Below are positions 10,140 through 40,611 of a stretch of 41,277 nucleotides of DNA, in pieces (within the stretch, counting starts at the first letter, position 1; each line of letters opens with the position of its first letter). The notes under the pieces were generated by a model that worked only from the letters and a program-made list of their open reading frames with translations, did not search any database and was not told the DNA's origin. This DNA is from Rhodobacterales bacterium (GTDB lineage Bacteria; Pseudomonadota; Alphaproteobacteria; Rhodobacterales; Rhodobacteraceae): the NCBI GenBank assembly GCA_025362795.1, contig JANYFE010000065.1, forward strand, positions 1 through 41,277, written 5' to 3'. The translations under genes and the position numbers were made by a program.

Positions 10140-10214
10140 TGGAGCGGGCGAAGGGATTCGAACCCTCGACCCTAACCTTGGCAAGGTTATGCTCTACCCC
10201 TGAGCTACGCCCGC
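10140..10214 (-). tRNA. tRNA-Gly (GCC)
   Basis: Read on the minus strand, a 75-nt tRNA with a 7-bp acceptor stem (GCGGGCG pairing with CGCCCGC), D-arm sequence TAGCTCAGGGGTAGAGCA, anticodon GCC in CTTGCCAAG, T-arm GTTCGAATCC and an encoded CCA end. A second, base-identical gene lies at 13482-13556 in the same orientation. Confidence 0.97.
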
Positions 10215-13481: not shown

Positions 13482-13556
13482 TGGAGCGGGCGAAGGGATT
13501 CGAACCCTCGACCCTAACCTTGGCAAGGTTATGCTCTACCCCTGAGCTACGCCCGC
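13482..13556 (-). tRNA. tRNA-Gly (GCC), second identical copy
   Basis: It has the same 75 bases as the tRNA at 10140-10214: anticodon GCC, encoded CCA, 7-bp acceptor stem. The two genes are direct repeats 3.3 kb apart. It lies between the RTX terminator and the pyc 3' end. Confidence 0.97.
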
Positions 13557-24095: not shown

Positions 24096-25247
24096 TCAGG
24101 CAACCGCCGCCTTCGCTCGGTCCAACGCCACCACCGCCAACCCCGCCGCCAACCCCCAGAACGCCGCGCCAATCCCAAAGGCCGCCACCCCCGATGCCGT
24201 CACCGCCAGCGTGATGGTTGCGGCAAACCGGGTCGGCACCGGCCCGTAGGCCCCCGCCAGTGCCCCCGTCAACGGCCCGAGCAGCGCCAGCGCCACCAGC
24301 AGACTCATCACATTTTGCGGCAAAGCCCCCAGCAGCAGCAGAACCGCCGGCCCCAGCAACCCCAGCCCAACCCAGGCCACCGCATAAGCCAACCCGACCT
24401 TCCAGCGTTGCGTTCTGTCGGGATGGACGTCATCGCCAAGACAGATCGCCGCCGTGATCGCCGCCACGCTGATCGTATGCGCCCCGAACAGCCCCGCCAG
24501 CGCCGACAGACCCCCCGTGGTGATCAGCGCCGGACCAACCGGCGGTTCATACCCCGCCGCCCGGATCGTCGCAAACCCCGGCAGGTTCTGGGACGCCATC
24601 GTCACCAGATACAACGGTACCCCCAACCCGATCAGCACTTCCAGTCGGAAGCTTGGCGCAATGAACGTCAACCGGGGCAGGGGCAACGCCAGCGCCGGCC
24701 ACGCGGCGCCGCCAAACCCGAACGCCGTGATCCCGCCCACCGCCAGCGTGGCCAGCACTGCCAGCGCCGGGTTCTTCAACCGCACCAGCACAAACACCGC
24801 CCCCATCGCCACCGCGATCCAGCCCAATCCCTGCGCCGCCGCCGGGCCTTTCAGACAAAACGGCAGCAACACCCCCGCCAGCATTCCCGCCGCCACCCCA
24901 TCCGGGATCAGCGCCACGACCCGCTCCAACGGCTTGATCGCCCCGGTCAGCGCGATCAGCACCCCCGCCAGCACAAAGGCCCCCACCGCCTCGTTCATCG
25001 AAATGCCGCTGGTCGCCGCAATCAGGGCCGCCCCCGGCGTCGACCATGCCAGCACCACCGGCACGCGGCTGAAGTAACTCAGACCCGCCGCCCCGACCGC
25101 CTTGGCCAAACAGATCGCCAGCAGCCAGCTCGCGGTCTGCGCCTGGGTTGCCCCCACCGCCGCCGCTGCCGCCAGCACCAGCGCAATCGTGCTGCCATAA
25201 CCGACCAGCGCCGCCACAAGGGCCGCCGAAATCATGGAAATCCGCAT
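24096..25247 (-). CDS. benE: BenE-type benzoate/H+ symporter family protein
   Basis: A 383-residue membrane protein with about 12 helices. It matches the benzoate:H+ symporter family by LVGYGSTIALVLAAAAAVGATQAQTASWL, VPVVLAWSTPGAALIA, the signature MASQNLPGFATIRAAGYEPPVGPALITTGGLSALAGLFGAHTISVAAITAAICLG, and VPTRFAATITLAVTASGVAAFGIGAAFWGLAAG. It probably imports an aromatic acid, but no benzoate catabolic genes are nearby. The ATG at 25245-25247 is my choice; a second in-frame ATG is 12 bp inside. The upstream side is odd: only GGGG precedes the start as a possible Shine-Dalgarno, and the T-tract of the sRNA terminator ends 9 bp before it. Expression may therefore need read-through or an unseen promoter. 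Confidence 0.85.
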   Translation of the reverse strand: MRISMISAALVAALVGYGSTIALVLAAAAAVGATQAQTASWLLAICLAKAVGAAGLSYFSRVPVVLAWSTPGAALIAATSGISMNEAVGAFVLAGVLIALTGAIKPLERVVALIPDGVAAGMLAGVLLPFCLKGPAAAQGLGWIAVAMGAVFVLVRLKNPALAVLATLAVGGITAFGFGGAAWPALALPLPRLTFIAPSFRLEVLIGLGVPLYLVTMASQNLPGFATIRAAGYEPPVGPALITTGGLSALAGLFGAHTISVAAITAAICLGDDVHPDRTQRWKVGLAYAVAWVGLGLLGPAVLLLLGALPQNVMSLLVALALLGPLTGALAGAYGPVPTRFAATITLAVTASGVAAFGIGAAFWGLAAGLAVVALDRAKAAVA

Positions 25248-25256
25248 GAAAACCCC

Positions 25257-25286
25257 AAAAAACCCGCTCCACTTATCGGGGCGGGT
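25257..25286 (-). terminator. Rho-independent terminator closing the CcsR RNA array
   Basis: On the minus strand ACCCGC (25281-25286) pairs with GCGGGT (25262-25267), extended inward by two C-G pairs past one mismatch, and is followed by a T6 run (25262 down to 25257). It is the only hairpin in the array followed by a T-tract. Confidence 0.75.
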
Positions 25287-25310
25287 CGGCAGCTTTGCAA
25301 GGGGGAGGGC

Positions 25311-25379
25311 GCGGCAACCCCTGGGAGGAGGTAGGGGTTGCCGCCGGTCCGATGGCCCTCGGGAGGAGGTGAGGGCCTG
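25311..25379 (-). ncRNA. CcsR4-like sRNA (two CCUCCUCCC stem-loops)
   Basis: Two hairpins on the minus strand: 25354-25377 (7-bp perfect stem GGCCCTC) and 25313-25342 (10-bp perfect stem GGCAACCCCT), each with the loop ACCTCCTCCC. They are separated by 11 nt. This is the CcsR ('cuckoo') RNA architecture of Rhodobacter: paired hairpins whose anti-Shine-Dalgarno-like loops can base-pair with targets. It is the last unit before the terminator. The exact ends are inferred from the hairpins. Confidence 0.85.
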
Positions 25380-25408
25380 TCGCACATCGTGGGCAGGCGA
25401 ACCTGCCG
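25311..25408 (-). repeat. Tandem duplicate half A of the sRNA array
   Basis: This block (two hairpins, the TGTCGCACATCG linker and a small hairpin) matches 25594-25691 almost base for base, 283 bp away in the same orientation. The arrangement of four RNAs looks like the product of duplicating a two-RNA unit. Confidence 0.8.
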
Positions 25409-25418
25409 AAAGAGGGGC

Positions 25419-25485
25419 GACGGTGCCAGGGAGGAGGTTGGCACCGCCGCATTTTGCCGGAACCCAGGGAGGAGGTTGGGCCCTT
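25419..25485 (-). ncRNA. CcsR3-like sRNA (two CCUCCUCCC stem-loops)
   Basis: Hairpins on the minus strand at 25460-25483 (7-bp stem with two G-U pairs) and 25421-25446 (8-bp perfect stem CGGTGCCA), both with the loop ACCTCCTCCC. It is the first unit of the second tandem half; a short GGCAGG/CCTGCC hairpin (25392-25407) separates it from the CcsR4-like unit. Confidence 0.85.
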
Positions 25486-25529
25486 GCAAACTCTGACCGC
25501 TGACATGGTGTCACCCGGCCGCTTGTTCC

Positions 25530-25555
25530 AGATCAGACCACATCAGGCCTGATCT
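25530..25555 (-). other. Hairpin in the spacer between the two array halves
   Basis: AGATCAG (25530-25536) pairs with CTGATCT (25549-25555). It lies in the 108-nt stretch between the second and third RNA, where no CCTCCTCCC loop occurs. It may be a processing site or internal terminator; no T-tract follows. Confidence 0.5.
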
Positions 25556-25593
25556 ACTGTGCCCCGCACGCAACATGCGCAGGGCGGAATGGC

Positions 25594-25662
25594 GCGGCAA
25601 CCTCTGGGAGGAGGTAGGGGTTGCCGCTGGTCCGATGGCCCTCGGGAGGAGGTGAAGGCCTG
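25594..25662 (-). ncRNA. CcsR2-like sRNA (two CCUCCUCCC stem-loops)
   Basis: Hairpins at 25637-25660 and 25596-25625 with loop ACCTCCTCCC. The stems match those of the CcsR4-like unit except for single changes that leave G-U pairs, so the structure is conserved while the sequence drifts. With its downstream hairpin it is a near copy of 25311-25408. Confidence 0.85.
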
Positions 25663-25691
25663 TCGCACATCGCTGGCAGACGGATCTGCCG
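25594..25691 (-). repeat. Tandem duplicate half B of the sRNA array
   Basis: The partner of 25311-25408. The small linker hairpin here is GGCAGA-cgga-TCTGCC (25675-25690) against GGCAGG-cgaa-CCTGCC in the other half: paired changes on both sides of the stem, a compensatory substitution. Confidence 0.8.
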
Positions 25692-25703
25692 GGTAAAATG
25701 GCG

Positions 25704-25772
25704 ACGGCACCAGAGGGGAGGTTGGCGCCGCCGCACGTGACCATAGGCCCTCAGGGAGGAGGTTGAGGCCCC
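25704..25772 (-). ncRNA. CcsR1-like sRNA (two stem-loops, second loop degenerate)
   Basis: Hairpins at 25746-25770 (loop ACCTCCTCCC, one bulged base) and 25706-25729 (7-bp stem with one G-U pair). The second loop reads ACCTCCCCTC on the minus strand, the only one of the eight that departs from CCTCCTCCC. It is the first RNA after the DUF1127 gene. Confidence 0.8.
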
Positions 25773-25789
25773 AGGTTCAGGTTCTTGCC

Positions 25790-25809
25790 GTCGCAGCCGG
25801 GGCTGCGAC
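25790..25809 (-). other. Stem-loop just after the DUF1127 stop
   Basis: GTCGCAGCC and GGCTGCGAC are a 9-bp perfect inverted repeat with a 2-base gap, starting 3 nt after the DUF1127 stop codon on the minus strand. No T-tract follows, so it probably protects the mRNA end or marks processing between the coding part and the sRNAs rather than ending transcription. Confidence 0.65.
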
Positions 25810-25812
25810 GAA

Positions 25813-26025
25813 TTACTTTGCGTAAGCCGCCTCGCGGGCCACTTCGCTGATCATGCCACGCGACAGGCCCAGATCCGACAGATCACGGTCGCTCAGCGCG
25901 TTCAGTTCGAACAGCGTCTGGCTGTAGACCTTGCGACGCTGCCGCGTGTCCGCAGCCACTTTCACAAACGCGGCGATCCGGTCAGAAAAGCTCAGAGACG
26001 CCGAGCGGGAATTCACATATGCCAT
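25813..26025 (-). CDS. DUF1127 small protein, CcaF1-like
   Basis: A 70-residue basic protein: MAYVNSRSASLSFSDRIAAFVKVAADTRQRRKVYSQTLFELNALSDRDLSDLGLSRGMISEVAREAAYAK. The C-terminal LxxLSDRDLxDLGLSRxxI is the DUF1127 signature. In Rhodobacter sphaeroides the DUF1127 protein CcaF1 is encoded directly upstream of the CcsR1-4 RNAs and binds RNA, affecting sRNA maturation. The identical order here makes this its counterpart. The ATG at 26023-26025 has GAGG six bases upstream; an ATG 12 bp earlier would bury that site. In R. sphaeroides the operon is driven by stress sigma factors RpoHI/RpoHII; I could not identify a clear promoter by eye. Confidence 0.93.
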   Translation of the reverse strand: MAYVNSRSASLSFSDRIAAFVKVAADTRQRRKVYSQTLFELNALSDRDLSDLGLSRGMISEVAREAAYAK

Positions 26026-26298
26026 TTTTAGCCTCACATTCTTTTACCTTGGCACCGCATCGTTCCGCTTACCGAACCGATCCTGTCGTGCTGTTAGGGC
26101 AAACATGGGCCAATTGCTGCACATGCACAATAGCTCGGTGAATCAATGCCGCCATGCAGCAAACGCATGGCTGAATGTCACGAAAAGTTCATGATTAACA
26201 GGCGTTTCGCTGAATTTTTGAGCATTTGGTCAACACGGCCTTGCCCTTTGCCGCAAAGCAGAACAGGCTTGTTGCACCTTTCGGCACAGGAGAAACCG

Positions 26299-27393
26299 AT
26301 GCCCCCGTCACGCGACGAAGTGCTAGCGCTGCTGGCGCGGATTTCCACCCCGGATGGCGGATCTTTTGTCAGCCGCGACTTGATTCGCGCCTTATCGGTC
26401 GAAAACGGTCAGGTGCGATTCATCATCGAAGCCCCCACCGCAGACGAGGCCCGCGCACTGGCCCCGGCGCAGATTGCCGCCGAACTGGCGCTCAAGGCGC
26501 TGCCCGGCGTGACCTCGGTGCAGGTGGTGATGACGGCCCATGGCCCCGCCGCCCGCCCCTTGCCAACCGCAGCGCCCGCCGCACCGCCCTCTTTCAAACT
26601 GGGCCAGCATCCCACCCCGCAACAGGGCGGCCCGCAACGCGTCAGCGGCGTTGACCGCATCATCGCCATCGCCTCCGGCAAGGGCGGCGTCGGAAAGTCC
26701 ACTGTCGCCTCGAACCTCGCGGTGGCCCTCGCCCGGCAGGGTCGCAAAGTCGGCCTGCTGGATGCAGATATATACGGCCCCTCACAACCTCGCATGATGG
26801 GCGTCTCCAAACGCCCCGCCTCGCCCGATGGCAAGATCATCGAACCTCTGACCGCGCACGGCGTCACCCTGATGTCGATTGGCCTGATGCTGAAGGACGA
26901 CGAGGCGGTAATTTGGCGCGGCCCGATGATCATGGGCGCGTTGCAACAGCTGATCTCGCAGGTTGCGTGGGGCAAACTCGACATCCTGATCATCGACCTG
27001 CCCCCCGGCACCGGCGACATTCAACTGACCCTGTGCCAACGCACCCACCTTACTGGCGCGATCGTCGTCTCCACCCCGCAGGATGTGGCGCTGCTGGACG
27101 CCCGCAAGGCGCTGGACATGTTCGTCAAGCTCAAGACCCCGGTTCTGGGCCTGATCGAAAACATGTCTACATACATCTGCCCCAACTGCGGCCACGAGGC
27201 GCATATCTTCGGCCATGGTGGTGTGGCGGCAGAGGCTGACAAGCTGGACCTGCCGTTCCTCGGCGAACTGCCCCTCAACCTCGAAGTCCGCGTCGCCGGC
27301 GACAGCGGCACCCCGATCGCGGCCACTGACAGCCCGCTGGCCGACCCCTATCTGCGTCTGGCCGCAAGGCTGATCGCTGGCGGCATGGCCTGA
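26299..27393 (+). CDS. mrp: Mrp/ApbC/NBP35-type iron-sulfur cluster carrier ATPase
   Basis: A 364-residue P-loop ATPase that carries and transfers [4Fe-4S] clusters in the cytosol. It has an N-terminal DUF59/MIP18-like domain ([43 protein letters not shown]), a Pro/Ala-rich linker at about 85-115, a deviant Walker [12 protein letters not shown] with Lys133, [31 protein letters not shown], and the cluster-binding Cys294-x-x-Cys297 in [14 protein letters not shown]. The ATG at 26299 follows AGGAG; the frame extends upstream to 26146 without homology. It is divergent from the DUF1127/sRNA locus. Confidence 0.95.
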
Positions 27394-27491
27394 CCCCGCC
27401 GCTTTCTGTCTCTGAATACCCCGCCGGTCGCTTCCACCGCTGCCGCCTGCGTTGTCGGGATGGCATGGGAAACCCCACACCCGCCGCCGCC

Positions 27492-27536
27492 GAATCACCC
27501 GAACGTGCCCGAATCCGAATCACTCGCCCGTGATTC
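27492..27536. promoter_or_regulatory. Cluster of four GANTC (CcrM) sites with a dyad, upstream of dcw
   Basis: GAATC at 27492, 27511 and 27517 and GATTC at 27532 give four GANTC sites in 45 bp. The last two belong to a perfect inverted repeat GAATCAC-tcgccc-GTGATTC (27517-27536). GANTC is the target of the alphaproteobacterial cell-cycle methyltransferase CcrM, and such sites control division genes in Caulobacter. The position between mrp and the dcw operon suits a methylation-sensitive promoter; function is inferred. Confidence 0.5.
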
Positions 27537-27849
27537 GCCGTGATTTACCTCAAAACTCACCCCGATTTCCCCCTTTGCAGCAACCCCAAGCCACGGCTTC
27601 TGCGCTGTGTCACGGACGCTGAAATATAACTTGGGATTTCATGGAACAAACCTATCTGGTAAATTTGATCTAAATATAGCGGAGATGTTCCAAAATTTCG
27701 CTACCTGTTGCGCAAACTCACCGTTTCATACCCCTAAATCCTGCGTTGCAACCGCGCCACACACAAGATCTTCGCTGTTTTTCGCGATTTTTTCCTTTGC
27801 CTCCCATGAAATCCCATGTCATCCCTGTTCTCACGAAGATGGAACGACA

Positions 27850-28055
27850 AACAAAGCAGGGGCGGCTCAAGACCCCGAATATAGGCGACAATAAACGGCA
27901 GGCTTCATACAGGCCAACGTTTCATCAAACAAAGAGATCCGGAGCGCGAGCGAGCAGACATCTCCCCCAAGATGGCAAGCGCAACTGGACGCCCAGCGAT
28001 GGGACAGAAGGCGGACCCGGCAGTGGCAGCAGCAGGGTCCGCCTATTTCATTTCA
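27850..28055 (+). ncRNA. upsM: UpsM-like sRNA from the mraZ 5' leader
   Basis: The 699-bp gap between mrp and mraZ has no convincing gene. In Rhodobacter sphaeroides the dcw operon has an unusually long leader, from which the abundant sRNA UpsM (about 200 nt) is released by partial termination upstream of mraZ. Here the same position holds a strong terminator hairpin (28009-28044) ending about 50 nt before the mraZ start. The 3' end is supported by that hairpin; the 5' end is only an estimate from the known length. An AT-rich stretch (about 27610-27900) upstream could carry the promoter; TATAGG at about 27882 is a possible -10. Confidence 0.5.
28009..28054 (+). terminator. Terminator/attenuator hairpin in the mraZ leader
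   Basis: AGGCGGACCC (28009-28018) pairs perfectly with GGGTCCGCCT (28035-28044): a 10-bp GC-rich stem, a 16-nt loop, then ATTTCATTTC. The moderate T-content fits the partial termination expected for a leader that must still allow dcw expression. Confidence 0.7.
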
Positions 28056-28092
28056 GGTTCTGGGACAGGACCACACGGGAAGGGCCGCTTAC

Positions 28093-28620
28093 GTGGCAAC
28101 CGAGGCGTTCAGAGGCGAGTTCTACCAGAAGGTAGACAGCAAGGCGCGGGTCTCGATCCCGGCTTCTCTGCGCCGTATCCTTGAAGCCGAAGACCCCGGT
28201 GCCAGCACCTCCCAGCGCGCCCGCGTCAACATGGTCTATGGCGGGGCAGGGCGGAATTTCGTCGAATGCTATTCGATGAACGGCGCCCGCGACCTCAACC
28301 ACCGCATCGCGCAGCTGCCGATGGGCAGCCCGCAGCGCGAAAAGGCCGAACTGACCTTCATCACCCGGTCCGTCGATGTTGACATCGACGAGGATGGCCG
28401 TCTGGTTCTGCCCGCCAAGGTCCGCGCCAAGATCGGCGTCACCGCAGAGGATCTGGCCGCCGGCTTTCAGGCCGCCTTTGCCGGTCGTCTGGAACGGTTT
28501 CAGCTGTGGAAGGGCGACACTTACGACGCTCTGGTCGTGGCTGCGGACGAGGATGGCGATGATATCCTGGGCGGTCAGGATCCATTGATCCTGCTGAAGA
28601 ACACCGTATCGGGGGGCTAG
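28093..28620 (+). CDS. mraZ: MraZ, division/cell-wall operon regulator
   Basis: A 175-residue protein of the AbrB-like MraZ family, a ring-forming DNA-binding regulator of the dcw cluster. It has two copies of the family core: [26 protein letters not shown] near the N-terminus and [28 protein letters not shown] in the second half. It starts with GTG at 28093 after GGGAAGGG. It is longer than the roughly 150 residues of enteric MraZ owing to an insertion ([14 protein letters not shown]) and a C-terminal tail, as is usual in Rhodobacteraceae. It is the first gene of a tight seven-gene operon. Confidence 0.95.
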
Positions 28621-39940: not shown

Positions 39941-40611
39941 TGCCCCGCCCCCTGCATCCCACCGCTCTGGTGACGGGCGGCAACCGCGGCATCGGCCGCG
40001 CCATCGCTGCCGGCCTGATCGCCAAAGGCTGCAACGTGACCGTCGGTAGCCGCGACGAGGCCGATGGCCGCCAGACTGCCCAATCGCTCGGTGCCAACTA
40101 CGCCAAGCTGGACCTGCTCGACCCTGACACCTACTTCGACGCCTGCACCCGCGCGGGCGGCTTTGACATCCTCATCAACAACGCGGGCAGCCTGCACCAC
40201 ACATCGCTCCTGTCGAAAGACAGCGACTTCACCACCGCGATGGAGGTGATGGTGAACGCCCCTCTCGATCTGATCCGCCTTTGCACCCCGCATTGGCGCG
40301 ACACCCAATGGGGCCGCATCGTCAACCTGTCCTCTGGCTGGGGTTCCCATGCCCAAGGCCTCGGCGGCCCCGGTGCTTATGGCGTGGCCAAAGCCGCCCT
40401 CAACGCGCTGACCCACGCTTTGCCCCGCGATCTGCCGCAGGGCGTCAAGATCAACGCCTGCGACCCCGGCTGGGTCAACACCCGTATGGGCGGCGCGTCT
40501 GCGCCCCTGACGCCCGAAGAAGGTGCCGACACCCCGATCTGGCTCGCCCTCCTCCCCGAAGATGGCCCGACCGGCGGGTTTTACCGTCGGCGTCAACCAG
40601 CGGCGTGGTGA
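39940..40611 (+). CDS. Short-chain dehydrogenase/reductase
   Basis: A 223-residue classical SDR: cofactor motif ALVTGGNRGIGRAIAAGL (TGxxxGIG), DILINNAGSL (NNAG), catalytic Ser in NLSSGWG and YGVAKAALN (YxxxK), then INACDPGWVNTRMGG. The arginine after the first strand (SRDEADG) favours NADP. The C-terminal EDGPTGGFYRRRQPAAW resembles the GPTGGFFRDGKPxxW end of plant carbonyl reductase-like SDRs. It is translationally coupled to the DenD-like gene by TGATG. Substrate unknown. Confidence 0.92.
   Translation: MPRPLHPTALVTGGNRGIGRAIAAGLIAKGCNVTVGSRDEADGRQTAQSLGANYAKLDLLDPDTYFDACTRAGGFDILINNAGSLHHTSLLSKDSDFTTAMEVMVNAPLDLIRLCTPHWRDTQWGRIVNLSSGWGSHAQGLGGPGAYGVAKAALNALTHALPRDLPQGVKINACDPGWVNTRMGGASAPLTPEEGADTPIWLALLPEDGPTGGFYRRRQPAAW

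Follow-up and report, generated by a model that had tools for sequence, protein, structure and literature searches.

The 41,277-nucleotide (nt) stretch of contig JANYFE010000065.1 (assembly GCA_025362795.1) from a Rhodobacterales bacterium, called here the window, carries on its minus strand a DUF1127 gene with an array of small RNA (sRNA) hairpins directly behind it (Table 1). The reading frame of the gene begins with the ATG at 26025 and closes with the stop codon at 25813; the scan of its product with the DUF1127 model PF06568 covered residues 2-70. Direct reading of positions 25249-26025 gives eight hairpins in four pairs, and the first CCTCCTCCC of the array begins 50 nt past the stop codon. 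An initial annotation, made from the letters alone, had described eight minus-strand hairpins in four pairs, seven of them with ACCTCCTCCC loops, ending at a T-tract terminator and lying right after a DUF1127 gene. The reading and the fold bear this description out, and add to it the hairpin next to the stop codon, two possible tetraloop hairpins and a further two hairpins in the middle spacer. The locus belongs to the CcsR/cuckoo sRNA family as a new member and is as such of a known kind.

Table 1. Features of the DUF1127-CcsR locus, in the order of transcription (positions in the window)
Feature	Position	Strand	Evidence
Box 1, TGCTGCATGGCGGCATTG	26144..26161	-	two or fewer mismatches to TGCTGCATGGCAGCATTG in 23 of the 25 array-bearing loci scored (own among them)
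Box 2, ATTGTGCATGTGCAGCA; TTG = likely -35	26115..26131	-	two or fewer mismatches to ATTGTGCANNTGCAGCA in all 29 array-bearing loci (own among them)
Likely -10/-12 element, GGCCCATGTTT	26101..26111	-	conserved after Box 2
DUF1127 gene (70 residues, ccaF1-like)	25813..26025	-	PF06568, 39.9 bits (cut-off 23.3)
9-bp hairpin between DUF1127 stop codon and unit 1	25789..25810	-	fold
CcsR unit 1 (second loop variant ACCTCCCCTC)	25696..25778	-	RF02791, 41.8 bits, E 1.2e-8, full length
Possible 6-bp tetraloop hairpin (GGCAGA/TCTGCC) between units 1 and 2	25675..25690	-	sequence
CcsR unit 2	25589..25670	-	RF02791, 52.1 bits, E 1.1e-11, full length
Middle spacer (between units 2 and 3), two hairpins	25530..25585	-	fold
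CcsR unit 3	25412..25491	-	RF02791, 53.1 bits, E 5.5e-12, full length
6-bp tetraloop hairpin (GGCAGG/CCTGCC) between units 3 and 4	25392..25407	-	fold
CcsR unit 4	25306..25387	-	RF02791, 59.7 bits, E 6.4e-14, full length
Rho-independent terminator, stem and TTTTTT	25249..25287	-	sequence and fold

The seven exact ACCTCCTCCC loops lie between 25323 and 25763, and the eighth loop, at 25713-25722, reads ACCTCCCCTC. Expressed as two-hairpin units with CCUCCUCCC loops, seven of the eight are exact and the remaining one is CCTCCCCTC. The 9-mer CCTCCTCCC is present in eight copies in the window, seven of them in the array, while 0.51 copies are expected and none of 100 shuffles reached eight. The first hairpin of the units has a stem of 5-7 uninterrupted pairs; the stems of the second hairpins span 12 positions, with one mismatch in unit 2. 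The two loops of a unit are spaced by 38-41 nt. The fold of the 581-nt region 25240-25820 has an energy of -282.6 kcal/mol, compared with -237.0 kcal/mol (standard deviation 7.0) for 100 dinucleotide shuffles (z -6.5). The two tetraloop hairpins differ in one base pair, both partners of which are changed, and the one between units 1 and 2 is absent from the minimum-energy fold of the whole region. The terminator was not listed by a simple consensus terminator scan. Unit 4 and the hairpin that precedes it repeat unit 2 and its preceding hairpin at 91% over 106 nt, and units 1 and 3 have 36 nt in common at 86%. Because both pairs of copies share one offset of about 284 nt, the sequence suggests that a two-unit block was duplicated within the array.

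The assignment to CcsR made in the initial annotation agrees with the Rfam covariance model RF02791 (CcsR1), which at a permissive threshold matches all four units over positions 1-83 of 83, with E-values from 6.4e-14 to 1.2e-8. A default Rfam scan of the whole window returns two tRNAs only and no CcsR, because each unit scores below the curated cut-off. Two minus-strand tRNA genes, at 10143-10214 and 13485-13556, have equal listed covariance scores. With 150 of the 2387 first-look candidates scored, the four units are the only RF02791 matches in their own genome at E up to 0.1; this genome has four DUF1127 genes, with loops near the window copy only. Among 149 genomes of the bacterial family, 121 have a match at E up to 0.001, a lower bound since the searches scored part of the first-look candidates (28 per genome), and in 8 of these 121 it lies above the gathering score of 65.3. 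The corresponding figures for control genomes are 1 of 14 at E up to 0.001 and 5 of 14 at 0.1.

It is important to compare these units with the alpha-r14 (NfeR1-type) sRNAs of rhizobia, which have an identical loop motif on hairpin stems that are variable. The alpha-r14 model RF02344 (ar14) also matches all four units, with 39.8 to 26.2 bits. However, CcsR1 outscores RF02344 in every one of the four. In addition, alpha-r14 has three hairpins, an RpoD-type promoter and control by LsrB and NtrC, and no DUF1127 gene is mentioned in the portions of the paper available (PMC10746234), while here two-hairpin units stand behind a DUF1127 gene. It is therefore very improbable that the array is of the alpha-r14 rather than the CcsR type.

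The layout is conserved in the family. Thirty family loci were taken as the best DUF1127 matches to the window protein from a longer list, own included, and in 29 of them an array of 2-16 exact loops follows just downstream of the DUF1127 gene on the sense strand; antisense-strand exact loops downstream of the gene were absent in all of these 29. Identity between the window protein and its counterparts at the 28 other array-bearing loci is 40-70%. The two arms of a hairpin pair at seven or more of 8 stem positions in 191 of 222 hairpins, compared with 34% of 4258 trials in which the arms were swapped between genomes. Judged from these sequences, the stems vary across the family loci with their pairing kept, and the loop sequence is fixed.

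The functionally characterized counterpart is the ccaF1-CcsR1-4 locus of R. sphaeroides (RF02791; CIN1/cuckoo), which has the same order of DUF1127 gene, four two-hairpin units and terminator (PMC10253847). The initial annotation had likewise given this order for R. sphaeroides, as RSP_6037 (CcaF1) followed by CcsR1-4. The two DUF1127 proteins have similar chain lengths, 70 residues here and 71 in R. sphaeroides, and RpoH-like TTG and CAT/TAT elements are likewise found upstream. In R. sphaeroides the locus is under an RpoHI/RpoHII promoter, RNase E processes it, and flhR is a target (PMC10253847, PMC8307010). CcaF1 and RNase E process its transcript into four RNAs (PMC10253847, PMC8625941), the CcsR RNAs bind Hfq (PMC8307010), and their effects extend to C1 metabolism and pyruvate dehydrogenase (PMC10253847, PMC8625941, PMC8307010, PMC5036791, PMC7866481).

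By analogy with this system, one RpoH-type promoter would give a transcript with the CcaF1-like DUF1127 frame and four two-hairpin sRNAs in its 3' part, and RNase E together with CcaF1 would cut it into an mRNA and the sRNAs. Stress induction and the RNA lengths, like the processing by RNase E, are carried over from R. sphaeroides. The loops, which copy the 16S anti-Shine-Dalgarno sequence, would pair with the Shine-Dalgarno sequences of selected mRNAs, and translation of these would be blocked under stress. The motif of these loops was named anti-Shine-Dalgarno in 2011 (PMC3927594), and such pairing is demonstrated for NfeR1 of S. meliloti, where the same loop silences ntrB by pairing at the translation start (PMC10746234). 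In the genome studied here, GGATCACCTCCTTT is found at a single place, taken as the 16S tail, and continues CAAAATGG. The array loops and this presumed tail have the segment ACCTCCT in common, which is consistent with the anti-Shine-Dalgarno reading and upholds the resemblance pointed out in the initial annotation.

Several observations weigh against this reading. None of the units reaches the RF02791 gathering score (41.8-59.7 bits), a threshold set in curation and not a property of the RNAs, and one of the eight loops no longer has the motif; both points also set the units apart from CcsR of R. sphaeroides. A consensus promoter scan gave no sigma-70 promoter. Finally, perfect GGGAGGAGG (CCTCCTCCC) places occur nine times in the genome outside the array, and none of the eight that were read (the ninth, at window position 40548, was left out) precedes a plausible gene start or resembles a ribosome-binding site. 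Two of these eight have an ATG 8 or 12 nt downstream, with frames that close after 20 and 19 codons. The pairing must then use shorter or imperfect matches.

That no plausible gene start follows any of the eight perfect complements read would also be expected if the loops acted mainly as a sponge, binding a protein (CcaF1, Hfq or another) rather than mRNAs, with the number of hairpins setting the titration capacity. A loop that is fixed while the stems vary fits such a role, as do the binding of Hfq by the R. sphaeroides CcsR RNAs (PMC8307010) and the range of 2 to 16 exact loops between loci, which would be expected were dose important. However, the loop matches the presumed 16S anti-Shine-Dalgarno sequence, and mutations in the same loops of NfeR1 abolish silencing of an ntrB reporter (PMC10746234). 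The sponge is accordingly regarded as unlikely. We consider it highly probable that the locus is a CcsR array with an RpoH-type promoter whose transcript is processed to an mRNA and sRNAs, the loops silencing selected mRNAs.

The region upstream of the DUF1127 gene contains a conserved bipartite element, TGCTGCATRGCRGCATTG-N11/12-ATTGTGCANNYGCAGCA, at window positions 26115-26161. The order in the family is Box 1 TGCTGCATRGCRGCATTG, 11-12 nt, Box 2 ATTGTGCANNYGCAGCA and then a CCCAT or CCTAT element. This promoter block is more constant across the family loci than the DUF1127 protein itself. In the form with T at Y, Box 2 has no mismatch in 17 of the 29 array-bearing loci, one in 9 and two in 3. 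Box 1 has five mismatches in L022 and L024, and was unscored in L017, L025, L026 and L033, where the 140-nt stretch began inside it. The window site is the sole exact 16-mer core of Box 2 in its genome, with nine places at one mismatch; the exact core is found in 114 of the 149 family genomes, compared with 8 for the same pattern read backwards.

TTG and TAT elements of RpoHI/HII are given for a homologous gene of R. sphaeroides (PMC10673084), and the TTG of Box 2 with the following CAT/TAT fits the RpoHI/HII elements (PMC10673084, PMC3441632). On its sequence, the second box would thus lie inside an RpoH-like promoter. We infer that the element is an operator for a transcription factor reading TGC/GCA half-sites. 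It was not found in the literature searched, which covered the best matches listed for PhaR together with CcsR or DUF1127; the primary CcsR papers may mention it. Among the papers listed, a comparison of Rhodovulum genomes (PMC9230146) contains both PhaR and DUF1127.

A pattern scan of named species genomes for the element alone gave at least 118 sites in at least 117 stretches, in which the conservation of Box 2 follows from the construction of the search pattern. The titles of these stretches name genera or groups that we take to belong to Rhodobacterales, or unplaced Alphaproteobacteria and Pseudomonadota. Among the 118 sites listed, 104 have a full flank of at least 600 nt downstream, and every one of these leads into a DUF1127 gene and/or CcsR loops: 80 into a DUF1127 gene and at least two exact loops, 10 into the gene and one loop, 10 into loops without a DUF1127 frame, and 4 into the gene with one-mismatch loops only. 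The 14 listed sites with shorter flanks comprise nine with a DUF1127 frame or loops and five that are too short (16-271 nt). The DUF1127 frames were called here by our own motif rule instead of a Pfam scan, and frames can be missed by it. For six of the ten listed full-flank sites without a called frame, the first loop is at 60-145 nt, too near for a gene. The others (L084, L156, L181 and L186) probably do have a DUF1127 gene, because their first loop is 297-334 nt away.

The rule is not clean: at L090, the second L104 site, L141 and L163, and in G060, the boxes come with a DUF1127 gene that has no exact loop behind it; the first four have one or two one-mismatch loops each. L104 has the operator twice, at a distance of about 223 nt; the first copy precedes an array of two loops and the second the DUF1127 gene without exact loops. 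Box 1 is present in all of six family arrays that have no DUF1127 gene. These six were picked by an exact Box 2 beside an RF02791 match, and Box 1 alone therefore counts as independent evidence. The element is absent at 12 of 12 array-free DUF1127 genes, namely L034, three paralogues in the same genome as the window and eight family loci. At the eight family loci the best box scores are 10-14 mismatches, equal to the opposite-strand control (10-14). For these controls, ten family genomes were fetched out of the 28 that have no RF02791 match; G102 and G069 proved to have loops after all (6 and 8 mismatches) and were dropped from the count. Ten further loci have an RF02791 match with no exact Box 2, and six of them keep the boxes within 4 total mismatches. 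The limit is exceeded in G035, G045, G058 and G120, of which G045 and G058 keep Box 1 within 2. In G120 (L250) the CcsR array lies upstream of the DUF1127 gene and not behind it. In G035 (L242) the array is beside mrp with no intervening DUF1127 gene, and a 3-base-pair (bp)-spaced PhaR-like box is found there.

The gene mrp adjoins 26 of the 29 array-bearing family loci (own included) and 93 of the 117 operator loci listed. The conserved element could thus belong to the divergent mrp/apbC gene instead of the array. However, no adjoining mrp match was found for 19 listed operator sites whose upstream DNA extends to 800 nt or more, and at five of the six array loci without DUF1127 the boxes are kept with no mrp in the 1.6-1.8 kb fetched. 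An assignment of the element to mrp is hardly credible on these counts.

The leading candidate for the protein that reads the element is PhaR, as judged from the half-sites. The published PhaR site of R. sphaeroides is CTGCNNNGCAG; PhaR sites of S. meliloti contain YGCRNYGCR, and the sRNA gene mmgR of that species, which is under PhaR repression, has CAATTGTGCACCGCAGCATTA (PMC12542648). The Bradyrhizobium site is TGCRNYGCASMA (PMC6201568). All four consensus half-sites, that is both arms of Box 1 and of Box 2, are equal to the PhaR half-site GCASMA (PMC6201568); the window copy of Box 1 has GCGGCA in one arm. The genome encodes PhaR (PF07879, 93.2 bits, contig C22; also PF05233), and its phaR gene has as neighbours a PhaC gene and one for a phasin-like protein (Phasin_2 21.2 bits, under the cut-off of 24.9). 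The sequence TGCTGC-ACC-GCAGCA precedes the phasin-like gene; its half-sites are those of the consensus Box 1, and its centre bases are different. The pattern CTGCNNNGCAG alone is too common in the genome to be of use, with 148 places compared with 74 for the pattern read backwards.

The PhaR/AniA boxes at phasin genes allow a closer comparison. The DNA upstream of phaR was compared in 20 relatives and in the genome studied here. Of these 21 regions, 16 carry a pair of boxes spaced by 26-30 bp, two carry a single box and three carry none; a contig end truncates one of the last three. Position and similarity served to recognize the phasin gene in the relatives, where it was not always seen. These boxes share the GCASMA half-sites with the element described here, where the spacing of the boxes is 31 bp. 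However, the centre is R-N-Y with 3 bp in 32 of 32 paired phaP boxes. The element departs from the 3-bp PhaR centre (as in CTGCNNNGCAG, or R-N-Y in the phaP boxes): Box 2 has a 4-bp spacer at the 29 array-bearing loci, and the centre of Box 1 has 3 bp but reads ATR.

This difference in the centres might mean that another factor, not PhaR, reads the element, or that the element is an extended form of a sigma-factor recognition sequence and confined to CcsR promoters. Four genomes that have PhaR (G035, G045, G058 and G120) show a lost or degenerate element, which points the same way, and G098 keeps both boxes without a PhaR hit (genome 84% complete). On the other side stand the equality of all four consensus half-sites with GCASMA, the sequence TTGTTGC-AGC-GCAGCA, a 3-bp-spaced form, at the place of Box 2 in G035, and the genus of the PhaR-less G003, which lost the half-sites and kept TTG and CATATGTT. 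We give this alternative an even chance.

The presence of PhaR, set against that of the boxes, is weak evidence. PhaR is found in 144 of the 149 family genomes. Among the five without PhaR, G033, G090 and G136 have no CcsR or DUF1127 match, G098 has intact boxes and G003 eroded ones. Five relatives from the genus of G003 whose promoter could be read likewise have eroded boxes; PhaR was scored in G003 only, the promoter of the sixth locus (G154) was not in the scored stretch, and the whole counts as one event. It is tentatively proposed, as a possibility that we rate somewhat below even, that the arrays of Rhodobacterales, with or without DUF1127, are under a dedicated bipartite operator read by PhaR, which would block the RpoH promoter from inside its spacer.

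Two neighbouring regions may be mentioned. A gene for a benE-like transporter (PF03594), also on the minus strand, begins at about 25247, immediately past the terminator of the array. Read-through of the terminator could drive this gene; benE matches were found at 10 of the 29 array-bearing family loci, the window locus among them. Upstream of mraZ, the region 27390-28093 corresponds to the place of the sRNA UpsM in R. sphaeroides (PMC8625941, PMC7866481), and an Rfam search of this 5' region gave no meaningful match.

The default Rfam cut-offs pass over this locus and 113 of the 121 family genomes with a match, and a widespread layer of likely translational control is thereby left unannotated. 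The conserved element allows arrays to be found by the promoter alone, including those without a DUF1127 gene. If PhaR reads the element, carbon storage would be directly coupled with stress riboregulation. Were PhaR to block the RpoH promoter in this way, the state of stored carbon would gate how strongly a stressed cell damps translation through pairing with ribosome-binding sites.

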